This document shows, piece after piece, positions 11,103 through 18,714 of a DNA stretch of 64,000 bases. The position numbers and the translations under genes were made by a program. The stretch comes from Rhizobium subbaraonis. GTDB taxonomy: Bacteria; Pseudomonadota; Alphaproteobacteria; Rhizobiales; Rhizobiaceae. Numbering within the stretch: the stretch's first letter is position 1; each line of letters opens with the position of its first letter. The DNA is taken from NCBI RefSeq assembly GCF_900220975.1, contig NZ_OBQD01000017.1:62001-126000 (forward strand). The letters are read 5' to 3'. The notes under the pieces were generated by a model. The model ran no database searches, was not told the origin of the DNA, and saw only the letters and a program-made list of their open reading frames with translations.

Positions 11103-12410
11103 ATGGCAGAAACGACCGGCGAGGGCAGCGCGGCCAAGGCGAAGGCGGCGCCCGCAAGTCGTCCGTTCTCCGGTTTCGAGCGGATGGTTGCCTGGCGCTA
11201 CCTGCGATCGCGGCGCAAGGAAGCGTTCATCTCCGTGATCGCCGGCTTTTCCTTCATCGGGATCATGCTGGGCGTGGCCACGCTGATCATCGTCATGGCC
11301 GTGATGAACGGTTTCCGCACAGAACTGATTTCGCGCATCCTCGGCATCAACGGCCACATGATCGTCCAGCCGATCGACGGTCCCCTGAACAATTACGCCG
11401 AACTGGCCGAAAAGTTTTCGCAGGTGCCGGGCGTCAGGCTGGCCATCCCGCTGGTCGAAGGCCAGACGCTCGCCTCCGGCAGGGATGGCGCCGGTACGGG
11501 GGCTTTGGTCCGCGGCATCCGCACGGACGACCTGACCAGGCTCAAGACCGTTTCCGACCACATAACCTCGGGCGATCTCACCGGCTTTGCCGCCGGTACC
11601 GGGGTTGCGATCGGCGCGCGGATGGCCGAGCAGCTCGGTATTTCCGCCGGCGACACGATTACGCTCGTCTCCCCGGAAGGAGACGTCACGCCGCTCGGTG
11701 TCAATCCGCGCGTGAAGAGCTACCCGGTATCGGCAATCTTCGAGATCGGCATGTCAGAGTATGACGCCTCGATCATCTACATGCCGCTCGAGGAGGCTCA
11801 GCTCTACTTCAATGCCGACGGACTGGTTCAGTCGATCGAGCTGTTTGTCGACAATCCCGACGCGGTCGACCAGTTGCGCCAGCCGATCGAGGCGGCAGCC
11901 GAGCGGCAGATCTACGTGACAGACTGGCGGCAGCGCAACCGAACCTTCTTCTCGGCGCTGGAAGTCGAGCGCAACGTCATGTTCATGATCCTGACGCTGA
12001 TCGTCCTCGTTGCCGCGCTCAACATCATCTCCGGCTTGATCATGCTGGTGAAGGACAAGGGCAGCGATATCGCCATCCTGCGCACGATGGGGGCGACGTC
12101 GGGCTCGATCATGCGCATCTTCTTCATGACGGGCGCTGCGATCGGGACCGTCGGCACCATTGCCGGCGTACTGCTCGGTGTTATCGTCTGCCTGAACGTC
12201 GAATCGATCCGGCAGTTCTTCTCCTGGCTGTCCGGACAGACCCTGTTCGATCCCGAGCTCTATTTCCTCAGCCAGCTCCCTGCCGACATGAACTTCGGCG
12301 AAACGATGTCGATCGTCATCATGGCGCTGCTGCTGTCGTTCCTGGCGACGATTTTCCCGGCTTGGCGGGCGTCAAAGCTCGATCCCGTACAGGCCCTGCG
12401 GTATGAATGA
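11103..12410 (+). CDS. lolC: Lipoprotein-releasing ABC transporter permease (LolC/LolE family)
   Basis: Inner-membrane permease that, with LolD, moves lipoproteins from the inner membrane to LolA. The 435-residue protein has a cytoplasmic start, a first helix at ~45-70 ([18 protein letters not shown]), a periplasmic MacB-like domain, and three helices at the C-terminus with the coupling-helix sequence [16 protein letters not shown]. The ATG at 11103 has GGAGG five bases upstream; the frame is open further up but without family similarity. One permease gene serves both LolC and LolE roles in this group. It overlaps lolD by eight bases. Confidence 0.93.
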
Positions 12411-13110
12411 AACGGAACGATCGATGAATTCGCGCGTGGCGTTGCAACTGGCTGGCGTGGACCGGCACTATGGTCAGGGCGACAGGCTGCTGACGATCCT
12501 GAAGGGCGCCGATTTCTCCCTGCGGAGCGGAGAGATCGTGGCGCTGGTGGCACCGTCGGGCACGGGCAAGTCGACGCTTTTGCATATTGCCGGCCTGCTG
12601 GAAAAGCCCGACGGCGGCGACGTTATCGTCAATGGGCACTCCTGTGCGCAGCTCGGCGACGAGGAGCGGACGGCCATTCGCCGTAACGAGATCGGCTTCG
12701 TCTACCAGTTCCATCATCTCCTGCCGGAGTTTTCGGCGCTGGAGAACATCATGATGCCGCAGCTCATCGGCGGCCTGCCTCGCTCCGAGGCGCGGGAGCG
12801 GGCAAAGCAGTTGCTTGACTACATGCGCATCGGCCACCGTGCGGACCACCGGCCATCGGAGCTTTCCGGCGGCGAGCAGCAGCGCGTGGCGATCGCCCGC
12901 GCCGTCGCCAACGCGCCGATCGTGCTGCTCGCCGACGAGCCGACCGGCAATCTCGATCCGGAGACGGCGGGTTATGTCTTTGAGGCGCTGCAGGCGCTCG
13001 TGCGCCAGTCCGGCCTGGCAGCGTTGATCGCGACGCACAACTTGGAGCTCGCGGGGCGCATGGATCGCAAGGTCACGATCGAGGACGGAAAGGTCCGCGA
13101 ACTTCGCTGA
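12403..13110 (+). CDS. lolD: Lipoprotein-releasing system ATP-binding protein LolD
   Basis: ATPase partner of LolC in lipoprotein release. From the ATG at 12403 (235 residues) the Walker A motif is APSGTGKST at 50-58, Q-loop in [11 protein letters not shown], signature LSGGEQQ at 154-160, Walker B IVLLADEP at 173-180 and the switch His in ATHNLEL. A second in-frame ATG at 12424 is an alternative start. The overlap with lolC points to translational coupling. Confidence 0.95.
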
Positions 13111-13261
13111 CGGTGATTGCGGTCGCCACACGCCGGCATGCTCAGGTGTCCCGTCGACCGCAACTGGAGTCTAGCGGATACAGCGACGGGCGTTTGCCTC
13201 GCTGTGGACGGCAGTATCTCGCACACGCGGCATCCGCAGACAGCCCCCTCGACCGGGGCGG

Positions 13262-13846
13262 TTATTGCGCGGAGAAGCCGCAGGCCTTCTGGCCGATCTC
13301 ATCGCTCCACGCCTCGAACGTCACCGTTTCGGCCCTTGCCGTCACCGGCTTGCCGTTGGCCATCCCCTTGCCGGTCAGCACGTTGAGATCGCATTGCGAG
13401 GTGTTGTTGGGATCGAGGGTATCGTAGGACGAATAGGTGTAGCCGGCGACGACGAACTGGCCGTTGCGATAGGCGATCGCCAGGCTCTGTTCCCAGCGGT
13501 CGCGCCCGACCGCGCTGTTCTGCGACGTCAGCTTGATCGAACCATTCGCAAGCGCTGCGACAGCTGGTTCCTGGCCGAACAGAGTCAGGTTTCCCCACAC
13601 CTTGTTCGGCGCGGCGACCTTCAGCTGCAGCCGGGCTTCCGAGGGCTCGGCGAGGTAGATGTAGACCCCGTTGTCGTCGCTGCCCTCCGACGGCCTTGCG
13701 ATCACCACCAGATCCGGGCTTCCATCCTTGTTCCAGTCCCCCATGGCTGCGGCAAAGATGCGCTCGGCGAGAAAGTCCTGCGCGGACGCGGCAACAGCGA
13801 GACCGGAAAACAGAAGGCTCGGTGCAAGCAGCCGTAGGGTTCTCAT
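13262..13846 (-). CDS. Secreted protein of unknown function with FG-GAP-like repeat
   Basis: The 194-residue protein starts with a clear Sec signal peptide (MRTLRLLAPSLLFSGLAVAA, cut probably after ASA). Near the N-terminus, GDWNKDGSPDLVV resembles a calcium-binding FG-GAP/VCBS repeat. The rest is beta-rich with two cysteines near the C-terminal half that could form a disulfide. It faces away from dnaE and towards lolD, with ~150 gene-free bases on the lolD side. I do not recognise a specific family. Confidence 0.7.
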   Translation of the reverse strand: MRTLRLLAPSLLFSGLAVAASAQDFLAERIFAAAMGDWNKDGSPDLVVIARPSEGSDDNGVYIYLAEPSEARLQLKVAAPNKVWGNLTLFGQEPAVAALANGSIKLTSQNSAVGRDRWEQSLAIAYRNGQFVVAGYTYSSYDTLDPNNTSQCDLNVLTGKGMANGKPVTARAETVTFEAWSDEIGQKACGFSAQ

Positions 13847-13961
13847 GAAGGTTGATCCTTAAAAGTTGTCGACCGCGACCATATGCATTCCGCCCAACAG
13901 CGTCCAGAGGTGGCCGAGCGCCGTTGCGGCCGGGGCGGGCCAGCAATTTTCAGTTTAGTGG

Positions 13962-13990
13962 TTGACGCATGAACAAAAATAGAACAAAAT
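13962..13990 (+). promoter_or_regulatory. Promoter with overlapping LexA (SOS) box
   Basis: GAAC at 13971-13974 and GAAC at 13982-13985 are separated by exactly seven bases, the alphaproteobacterial LexA box (equal to GTTC-N7-GTTC on the other strand). It lies in the spacer of a promoter: TTGACG (13962-13967) and CAAAAT (13985-13990), 17 bases apart. LexA bound here would block RNA polymerase. The downstream units are the 28-codon gene at 14019 and dnaE. Confidence 0.7.
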
Positions 13991-14018
13991 AAAAACATAA
14001 ACAGATTGGAGCCGTCAA

Positions 14019-14105
14019 ATGACCGAATTCATGCGTGATCTTGCCGCCTTTGCGTCCATTGCATTGTTCATTGCGAGCTTCTCGGTTCTCGCGCTAGGCC
14101 TTTGA
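14019..14105 (+). CDS. 28-residue membrane peptide, probable SOS-induced (SidA-like in size and context)
   Basis: ATG at 14019 follows a TTGGAG ribosome site (14006-14011) and opens a 28-codon frame: a short charged start (MTEFMRD) then an unbroken hydrophobic helix to the end (AAFASIALFIASFSVLALGL). A LexA box sits in the promoter right upstream and dnaE begins 127 bases downstream. Known comparison: Caulobacter SidA is a 29-residue, LexA-controlled inner-membrane peptide that stops division after DNA damage. That this peptide does the same is inference; no sequence alignment was made. Confidence 0.6.
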   Translation: MTEFMRDLAAFASIALFIASFSVLALGL

Positions 14106-14232
14106 CGGCCTGCTGGCCCTGGCGTGCCTGGGATTGGGGCAGCCGGGGATAAGGCACCCGTCCAGAACCTTTGACTGGACATTGGCTGCCAGAATCCGCT
14201 TATCGTGGTCGCTCTGAAAAGGAGTGGTGAAG

Positions 14233-17733
<3,501 letters not shown>

Positions 17734-17979
17734 CGCTCCCCTTTATCCGGCCTTGGCGGGGGTGGGCCAACCGTTATCCGGCCGCTTGCGGCGGGATGCG
17801 GCGCGCTCGCGGCCGCGTTCAATCGGTTGCGCTGCGCATCCCTTGGTGACGCATGGATAGCCATATTGCGGGTGTTTCGGGACTGACAGGCAGCAGGCCG
17901 GTCAATTTTGAGATCAGCCTCCTGCCAGTCCTCGGTTCGTTTGAAGGCTCAGCGCCCCGATACGGGCGCGCCTCTGGGA

Positions 17980-18372
17980 TCAGCGCTCGAAGCGTCCCTC
18001 GTACTTGAATTCGGGCGCCTTTTCGAGCTGATCCTTGGTTGTGTTCATCATTGCCGTCCACTTCTTGTCGTTTTCCAGATAGGTGATTTTCACGGCGGCC
18101 GGAGTGACCATGACGAAGTGTTCGCCCATGCCGAGAAAACCGCCCACCGAAACGACGTAGCCGGCAAGCTGCCCTTCAGAGATGACGATATCCTTGATCT
18201 CGCCGATCGCTTCGTCTGCCTCGTTGGTGATGTTCAGCCCGACAAGATTGTAGCTGAGCACATCTGTCGGCTGGACGGTGACGAACGTTTCGGTTTTGGT
18301 GACCTCGGCCGTTTGGGCGTAGGCCGCTCCTGCGATCATCATCGTGGCAAGTGCGGTTGTAATGAAGCGCAT
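17980..18372 (-). CDS. Secreted PRC-barrel domain protein
   Basis: A 130-residue protein with a Sec signal peptide (MRFITTALATMMIAGAAYAQ) and a PRC-barrel-like core: LVGLNITNEADEAIGEIKDIVI, then YVVSVGGFLGMGEHFVMV. Such periplasmic proteins are common in Rhizobiaceae and mostly of unknown role. The ATG at 18372 has a GGAGG site seven bases before it on the minus strand; the frame extends 17 codons upstream without signal-peptide logic. The ~245 bases between this stop and the dnaE stop hold nothing I can support. Confidence 0.8.
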   Translation of the reverse strand: MRFITTALATMMIAGAAYAQTAEVTKTETFVTVQPTDVLSYNLVGLNITNEADEAIGEIKDIVISEGQLAGYVVSVGGFLGMGEHFVMVTPAAVKITYLENDKKWTAMMNTTKDQLEKAPEFKYEGRFER

Positions 18373-18456
18373 CGTGAATCCTCCGGCATTGATACGGCAA
18401 GAAGAACGTCGCGTGGTAGACAATGTTCCCGCGACGGCCCCTGCCTGCAGCCGCTG

Positions 18457-18714
18457 CTATGCTCTCCGCTTGAACGACGGCAGAAGCGCTGCCTTGATGA
18501 ACGTTCCGTCGCGCTGTCCCTGGGAGTAGAGCCGGATGATGGCCACTCCCAGCGATTCTGCGGCTTGGCTGTCGATGGGGAAGGTGCATTCCTGGAGGCA
18601 GTCGTCGAAGATGTGCTGCATCCGGTTCAGGTCGTCAGGGCTGAACACCTTCGAGTTGGAACCGCATGGAAAGACCGGATAGCCGGCGGCGTCGTAGTAG
18701 AAAGATGTAGACAC
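18457..18714 (-). CDS. Small protein of unknown function
   Basis: The frame is open far upstream, but a GTG at 18714 is preceded by a perfect GGAGG six bases away, giving 85 residues starting MSTSFYYDAAGYPVFP. It contains two cysteines (FPCGSN and DCLQEC regions) and a basic end. No signal peptide or known motif is visible. It lies in the same direction as the PRC-barrel gene, 84 bases upstream of it. Confidence 0.5.
   Translation of the reverse strand: MSTSFYYDAAGYPVFPCGSNSKVFSPDDLNRMQHIFDDCLQECTFPIDSQAAESLGVAIIRLYSQGQRDGTFIKAALLPSFKRRA

Follow-up and report, generated by a model that had tools for sequence, protein, structure and literature searches.

A 28-codon gene ahead of dnaE in Rhizobium subbaraonis as a likely diverged ortholog of the Caulobacter division inhibitor SidA

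A very short open reading frame with a LexA-type box in its promoter lies just upstream of dnaE in a 64,000-nucleotide stretch of the Rhizobium subbaraonis genome (hereafter the window), which raises the question of whether this frame is a real gene and whether its product is an SOS checkpoint peptide of the kind known from Caulobacter. A sequence-only reading had described a promoter, a box situated exactly in the promoter spacer, a ribosome-binding site and a 28-codon frame encoding one membrane helix before dnaE. All of these were confirmed by direct reading (Table 1), except that the placement of the box held only in part: the box, GAACAAAAATAGAAC, occupies the 17-base spacer from its fourth base and has one base in common with the second hexamer. 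No other promoter-like match was found by a promoter scan within positions 13000-15000. The encoded peptide, MTEFMRDLAAFASIALFIASFSVLALGL (28 amino acids), has a polar N-terminus of seven residues followed by a single membrane helix, with a hydropathy peak of 2.33 over 17 residues.

Table 1. Features of the locus, in window coordinates
Feature	Position	Strand	Remarks
lolD-like ABC transporter ATP-binding gene	12403..13110	+	ABC_tran 112 bits; conserved upstream neighbour
Gene of 194 codons between lolD-like gene and peptide gene	13262-13846	-	weak FG-GAP_3 match
Sigma-70-type promoter of peptide gene, TTGACG-17-CAAAAT	13962..13990	+	read directly; hexamers TTGACG 13962-13967, CAAAAT 13985-13990
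LexA-type box, GAAC-N7-GAAC	13971..13985	+	inside promoter spacer; direct reading
Ribosome-binding site GGAG	14008..14011	+	7 bases 5' of ATG; GGAG at about the same place in genus sequences
SidA-like peptide gene, 28 codons	14019..14105	+	ATG 14019, stop 14103-14105
Conserved element CTGGAC-N18-CTTATC, probable separate dnaE promoter	14175..14204	+	genus alignment; promoter role inferred
dnaE, replicative DNA polymerase III alpha subunit	14224..17733	+	likely start ATG 14233

The downstream gene is identified as dnaE by NF004226 (1512 bits, cut-off 1002) and by the annotation of dnaE at the corresponding place in Sinorhizobium meliloti CP090106.1; in the window, 127 bases separate the peptide stop from the likely dnaE start. 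The order of lolD-like gene, peptide region and dnaE matches that of CP090106.1, and the name lolD is inferred because a neighbouring lipoprotein-releasing permease is annotated in that record. The intervening minus-strand gene scores 24.4 bits against FG-GAP_3, below the cut-off of 26.9, and a relative of it is present in 22 of the 30 best-matching loci of the family. A Pfam match to DUF5345 (E 0.047, 14.3 bits, cut-off 27) was dismissed as chance, and nothing in Rfam matched positions 12000-18500 of the window.

Within the genus, the region was matched in seven of seven genomes, all of which keep the GAAC-N7-GAAC box and a 28-residue peptide before dnaE. The peptide frame is under purifying selection (pN 0.076, pS 0.467, pN/pS 0.164; 21 pairs from the seven genomes). 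Across the family, a peptide profile matched 259 of 394 genomes at the loose limit of E<=1 and 136, counted by hand, below E 1e-3; linkage to dnaE was examined for the 30 best loci of the latter and for seven more. Every one of these 30 best loci has dnaE downstream on the same strand, a frame of 28 codons and a perfect box starting at -46 to -50, and TTGAC is found at most 12 bases 5' of the box in 28 of them; a genus that includes Sinorhizobium sojae and S. terangae (g46) is represented. In 12 of the 30, a third GAAC follows the box at an equal pitch of 11 bases, and a double LexA operator is therefore suggested.

Of 53 family genomes that matched weakly or not at all, one per genus, 50 were read upward from dnaE and three were left out. 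A recognisable relative of the peptide is carried by 23 of these 50 low-scoring genera, with a perfect box in 20 of the 23, and no such peptide was found by scan in the other 27 (of these, one lacked an anchor and another offered just 400 bases of upstream sequence). Conservation of frame and box before dnaE in other Rhizobiales had been proposed as a check of the sequence-only reading, and their absence from relatives as its refutation; the check, once run, was positive at all 30 best family loci and the refutation was not met there, yet the 27 low-scoring genera in which the scan found no peptide count against the reading.

The order-wide search matched 20 of 397 genomes at E<=0.01, nine of them inside the family. 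Nineteen newly returned loci were read, with dnaE downstream in 17 and a perfect box in 15 of the 17; two order-search matches were discarded as chance, dnaE not adjoining. In the class-wide search, dnaE was matched in 357 of 385 genomes, and about 700 bases upstream of dnaE were scanned in 90 loci, the window included. GAAC-N7-GAAC was present upstream in 15 of the 90, against six for the opposite orientation, which served as the chance yardstick, and the perfect box was absent upstream in the other 75. Behind the box, all 15 loci have a short frame with a stretch resembling a membrane helix; four of these frames fell short of the hydropathy cut and were judged by eye.

As evidence standing alone, the box was discarded, because the window holds two GTTC-N7-GTTC matches where chance predicts 2.26. 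What gives it weight is that box, spacing, peptide and position are conserved together. A box of the same type, GAACACATATGGAAC, stands 47 bases before the genome's own lexA; boxes also precede two ImuA-like genes (NF033429 71 and 57 bits, under the cut-off of 150), and GAACAAAGAGTGTAC, found upstream of recA, is one base off the box. The assignment of GAAC/GTTC-N7 repeats to LexA in the sequence-only reading is supported comparatively, by the box of lexA itself and by conservation. A GAAC-N7-GAAC operator overlapping the promoter, the criterion for membership of the LexA regulon, is present at the peptide gene; LexA binding and damage induction at its promoter are inferred, without binding or expression data.

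Two further boxed loci were noted in this genome. One boxed ImuA-like gene (G000:C54:384445) has GAAC repeats in a run and weak similarity to SulA models (32.9 bits, cut-off 150). At another locus (G000:C49:157374), the LexA-type box GAACAAAATATGAAC lies 36 bases 5' of a phage-integrase gene (PF00589, 78.1 bits), which might belong to an SOS-linked mobile element.

SidA of Caulobacter crescentus (CCNA_02004; PMC10769358) has 29 residues, is induced on LexA cleavage, interacts with FtsW and inhibits division when overproduced (PMC4211646), in agreement with the description of SidA on which the sequence-only reading relied. The dnaE gene of C. crescentus is CC1926 (PMC1839093). CCNA_02005 is a nucleoside hydrolase (PMC3667746), and therefore the NA1000 locus tags alone do not prove that sidA and dnaE adjoin; their adjacency was taken from relatives, strain NA1000 itself not being among them. 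Caulobacter-type genomes were chosen via PopZ loci, and 24 genomes (out of 80 loci) were searched for dnaE, which was matched in 23 (17 Caulobacter, five Phenylobacterium and one bin, CAULO1). Directly 5' of dnaE, all 23 have a peptide of 29-30 residues, preceded by a perfect box in 12 and by a box with one mismatch in 11 (the latter not corrected for chance). A lolD match falls within the same stretch in 13 of the 23 loci, and in C. vibrioides OR37 a match to the lolD-like gene of the window lies upstream of the peptide. In several Caulobacterales loci, complete and incomplete GAAC repeats stand in a row before sidA in place of one clean box. The OR37 peptide is SidA according to NCBIfam NF033228 (72.7 bits, equivalog cut-off 35), and all four Caulobacterales forms tested pass this model with 57.8-72.7 bits.

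The window peptide fails this equivalog criterion. Neither it nor the Sinorhizobium peptides matched NF033228 at E<=1, and no match at E<=10 was given by one more rhizobial form or by further forms from outside Caulobacter. Rhizobial and Caulobacter profiles were aligned by hhalign in register over 18 columns with an E of 4.5e-4 and a probability of only 33%. A positional score was built on 43 non-Caulobacter peptides and compared with shuffles that preserve the polar and hydrophobic segments; the scores of six Caulobacterales forms were reached by 0-23 of 10,000 such shuffles. Among nine peptides from other families, f174 and f56 were at or below 0.2% and four were at 0.6-2.3%, while the test was not significant for f172, f61 and f93, class-level peptides whose support consists of locus and box only. 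When 378 hydrophobic frames of 25-36 codons were ranked, all those above 3 were dnaE-linked family peptides or SidA forms (alternative starts included); many dnaE-linked family peptides were built into the profile behind this ranking, and the SidA forms were not.

The rhizobial peptide resembles SidA in length (28 and 29 amino acids), in having one helix after a short polar start, in a core R-[DE]-x-x-A-[LF]-x-S-[VI]-x-x-F-[VI] that is in register between the two, in its LexA-type box and in its position before dnaE; it differs in its diverged sequence, without a match to NF033228, and in the loss of the FVWMM stretch of SidA. The broad-sense criteria for SidA (length with one helix, location directly before dnaE, a LexA-type box, and modest sequence homology joined with position and box) are satisfied. 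Because locus, box, length, helix and motif agree, orthology is the best reading, and the link to SidA proposed earlier has held more strongly than claimed, the peptide gene having the corresponding locus in Caulobacter and the similarity being in register. We conclude that the 28-codon frame is likely (probability about 0.8) a real gene and the Rhizobiaceae ortholog of Caulobacter SidA, encoding a LexA-controlled division inhibitor. The gene, its box, their conservation, the locus and the kinship to SidA in sequence rest on the present data; that LexA binds, that damage induces the gene, that FtsW is the target and that division is blocked are inferences.

Translation of such a frame has been reported in S. 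meliloti, in which a 2023 study of the small proteome found sORF25, in the 5'-UTR of dnaE1, to be translated by Ribo-seq (PMC10117765). Before dnaE, CP090106.1 encodes MADFVRDLAAFASMSLFIVSISVIALGL behind GAACGGAAATAGAAC, a box of the same type, and the plus-strand frames of at least 20 amino acids between box and dnaE are this 28-residue frame and one overlapping dnaE. Like the frame of the window, sORF25 is small, and it is probably the S. meliloti counterpart, the identity being inferred; LexA and SOS go unmentioned in the paper's main text, and no function is given in the relevant sections. No gene is listed between the lolD-like gene and dnaE in CP090106.1, of which the gene table is incomplete. 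CP090106.1 is titled S. meliloti plasmid pSymB, yet it is 3.7 Mb long and carries genes for prolyl-tRNA ligase and a lipoprotein-release transporter as well as dnaE, and by its appearance it is likely a mislabelled chromosome.

Between the peptide gene and dnaE, the genus alignment shows strong conservation of the element CTGGAC-N18-CTTATC. A scan of 44 loci, two of them lacking an anchored dnaE start, returned the pattern CTGGAC-spacer-NNTATC (spacers of 16-20 allowed) in 20; Sinorhizobium and others have the form CTGGAC-N18-GATATC. This element is likely a separate housekeeping promoter of dnaE, a role that is inferred, and any SOS control of dnaE is therefore likely to be partial read-through. 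The earlier suggestion that dnaE may share the SOS control is not shown, and any such effect is likely partial. A perfect 6-bp hairpin, GTCCAG-N9-CTGGAC (14160-14180), lies between the peptide gene and dnaE and overlaps the CTGGAC element.

In the proposed mechanism, LexA bound to GAAC-N7-GAAC between -35 and -10, covering both hexamers, would keep the peptide gene off until DNA damage led to cleavage of LexA and opening of the promoter. The 28-residue peptide would then be inserted as a single helix into the inner membrane, where, by analogy with SidA, it would hold the FtsW/FtsI/FtsN septal synthesis complex inactive, so that division would be delayed until repair was complete. Changes in FtsW that suppress SidA map to A31, F145 and A246 (PMC4211646); at the aligned columns, the FtsW of this genome is identical to that of C. 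vibrioides, and the Sinorhizobium FtsW examined has T, not A, at 31 and keeps 145 and 246. This agreement is indirect, as conservation for other reasons is possible. Binding to FtsW or FtsN and a block of division on overproduction are inferred for the rhizobial peptide by analogy, without functional data. The sequence-only reading of a rhizobial SOS checkpoint peptide is accordingly upheld by comparison only, and damage induction and division block remain inferences.

A rival explanation is that the frame is an upstream frame or leader peptide, translation of which tunes dnaE expression, the peptide itself being inert. In its favour, the S. meliloti frame sits in the dnaE1 5'-UTR, roles as uORFs have been suggested for such frames (PMC10117765), and a conserved element and a stretch capable of forming a hairpin lie between frame and dnaE. 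Against it, amino acids are kept despite synonymous divergence and the membrane helix is kept across families; 127 bases lie between the stop and the likely dnaE start in the window; dnaE likely has a separate promoter; the leader folds only mildly better than shuffled sequences (z -1.79); and the positional counterpart in Caulobacter inhibits division on overproduction (PMC4211646). This explanation is considered very improbable.

About as improbable is an SOS-induced peptide that depolarises the membrane and brings about dormancy instead of a specific divisome block, for which TisB is the comparison system. Short length, hydrophobicity and a LexA-type promoter would fit such a peptide, but the kinship with SidA in locus and sequence and the strong positional conservation beside dnaE speak against it. 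Finally, a chance frame behind a chance box might be invoked, given how often the box alone is expected in a window; this is all but ruled out, as it is refuted by the fact that different genera keep the box, its spacing, the peptide and the neighbouring gene. The preferred reading remains that of a SidA ortholog.

Small damage-induced membrane proteins that act at a late stage of division are also known from other phyla (YneA, SosA and ChiZ; PMC13396833). FtsW has been shown to be the target of YneA and is predicted to be that of the others (PMC13396833); YneA and ChiZ differ from the present peptide in carrying a LysM domain. DidA of Caulobacter is likewise a damage-induced small membrane inhibitor of the identical divisome complex, but it is independent of SOS and interacts with FtsN (PMC4211646). 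No named SOS division inhibitor of Rhizobiales was found in the literature searched; SOS genes of Agrobacterium are named there, without a small division inhibitor in the relevant sections, and a literature match in which LexA served as a two-hybrid tool was set aside. Nor was a diverged, unannotated SidA branch at the dnaE locus of Rhizobiaceae found in the literature searched, but homologs could have been mentioned earlier, by Modell et al. 2011. What is new is thus this branch, in Rhizobiaceae and beyond; SidA itself was already known.

A bolder reading, which we hold as apt to prove wrong as right, is that SidA, far from being peculiar to Caulobacter, is a checkpoint peptide ancestral to the Alphaproteobacteria, built into a lolD-sidA-dnaE arrangement and lost, or diverged past recognition, in some lineages. 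In rhizobia, the leader beside the polymerase gene would couple replication trouble to the divisome, and it may have a further use in bacteroids that have ceased to divide but still replicate. If true, SidA would be placed deep in alphaproteobacterial history, beside the gene of the replicative polymerase. With a candidate in Sinorhizobium and many relatives, and FtsW as its predicted target, the DNA-damage checkpoint of rhizobia becomes testable.
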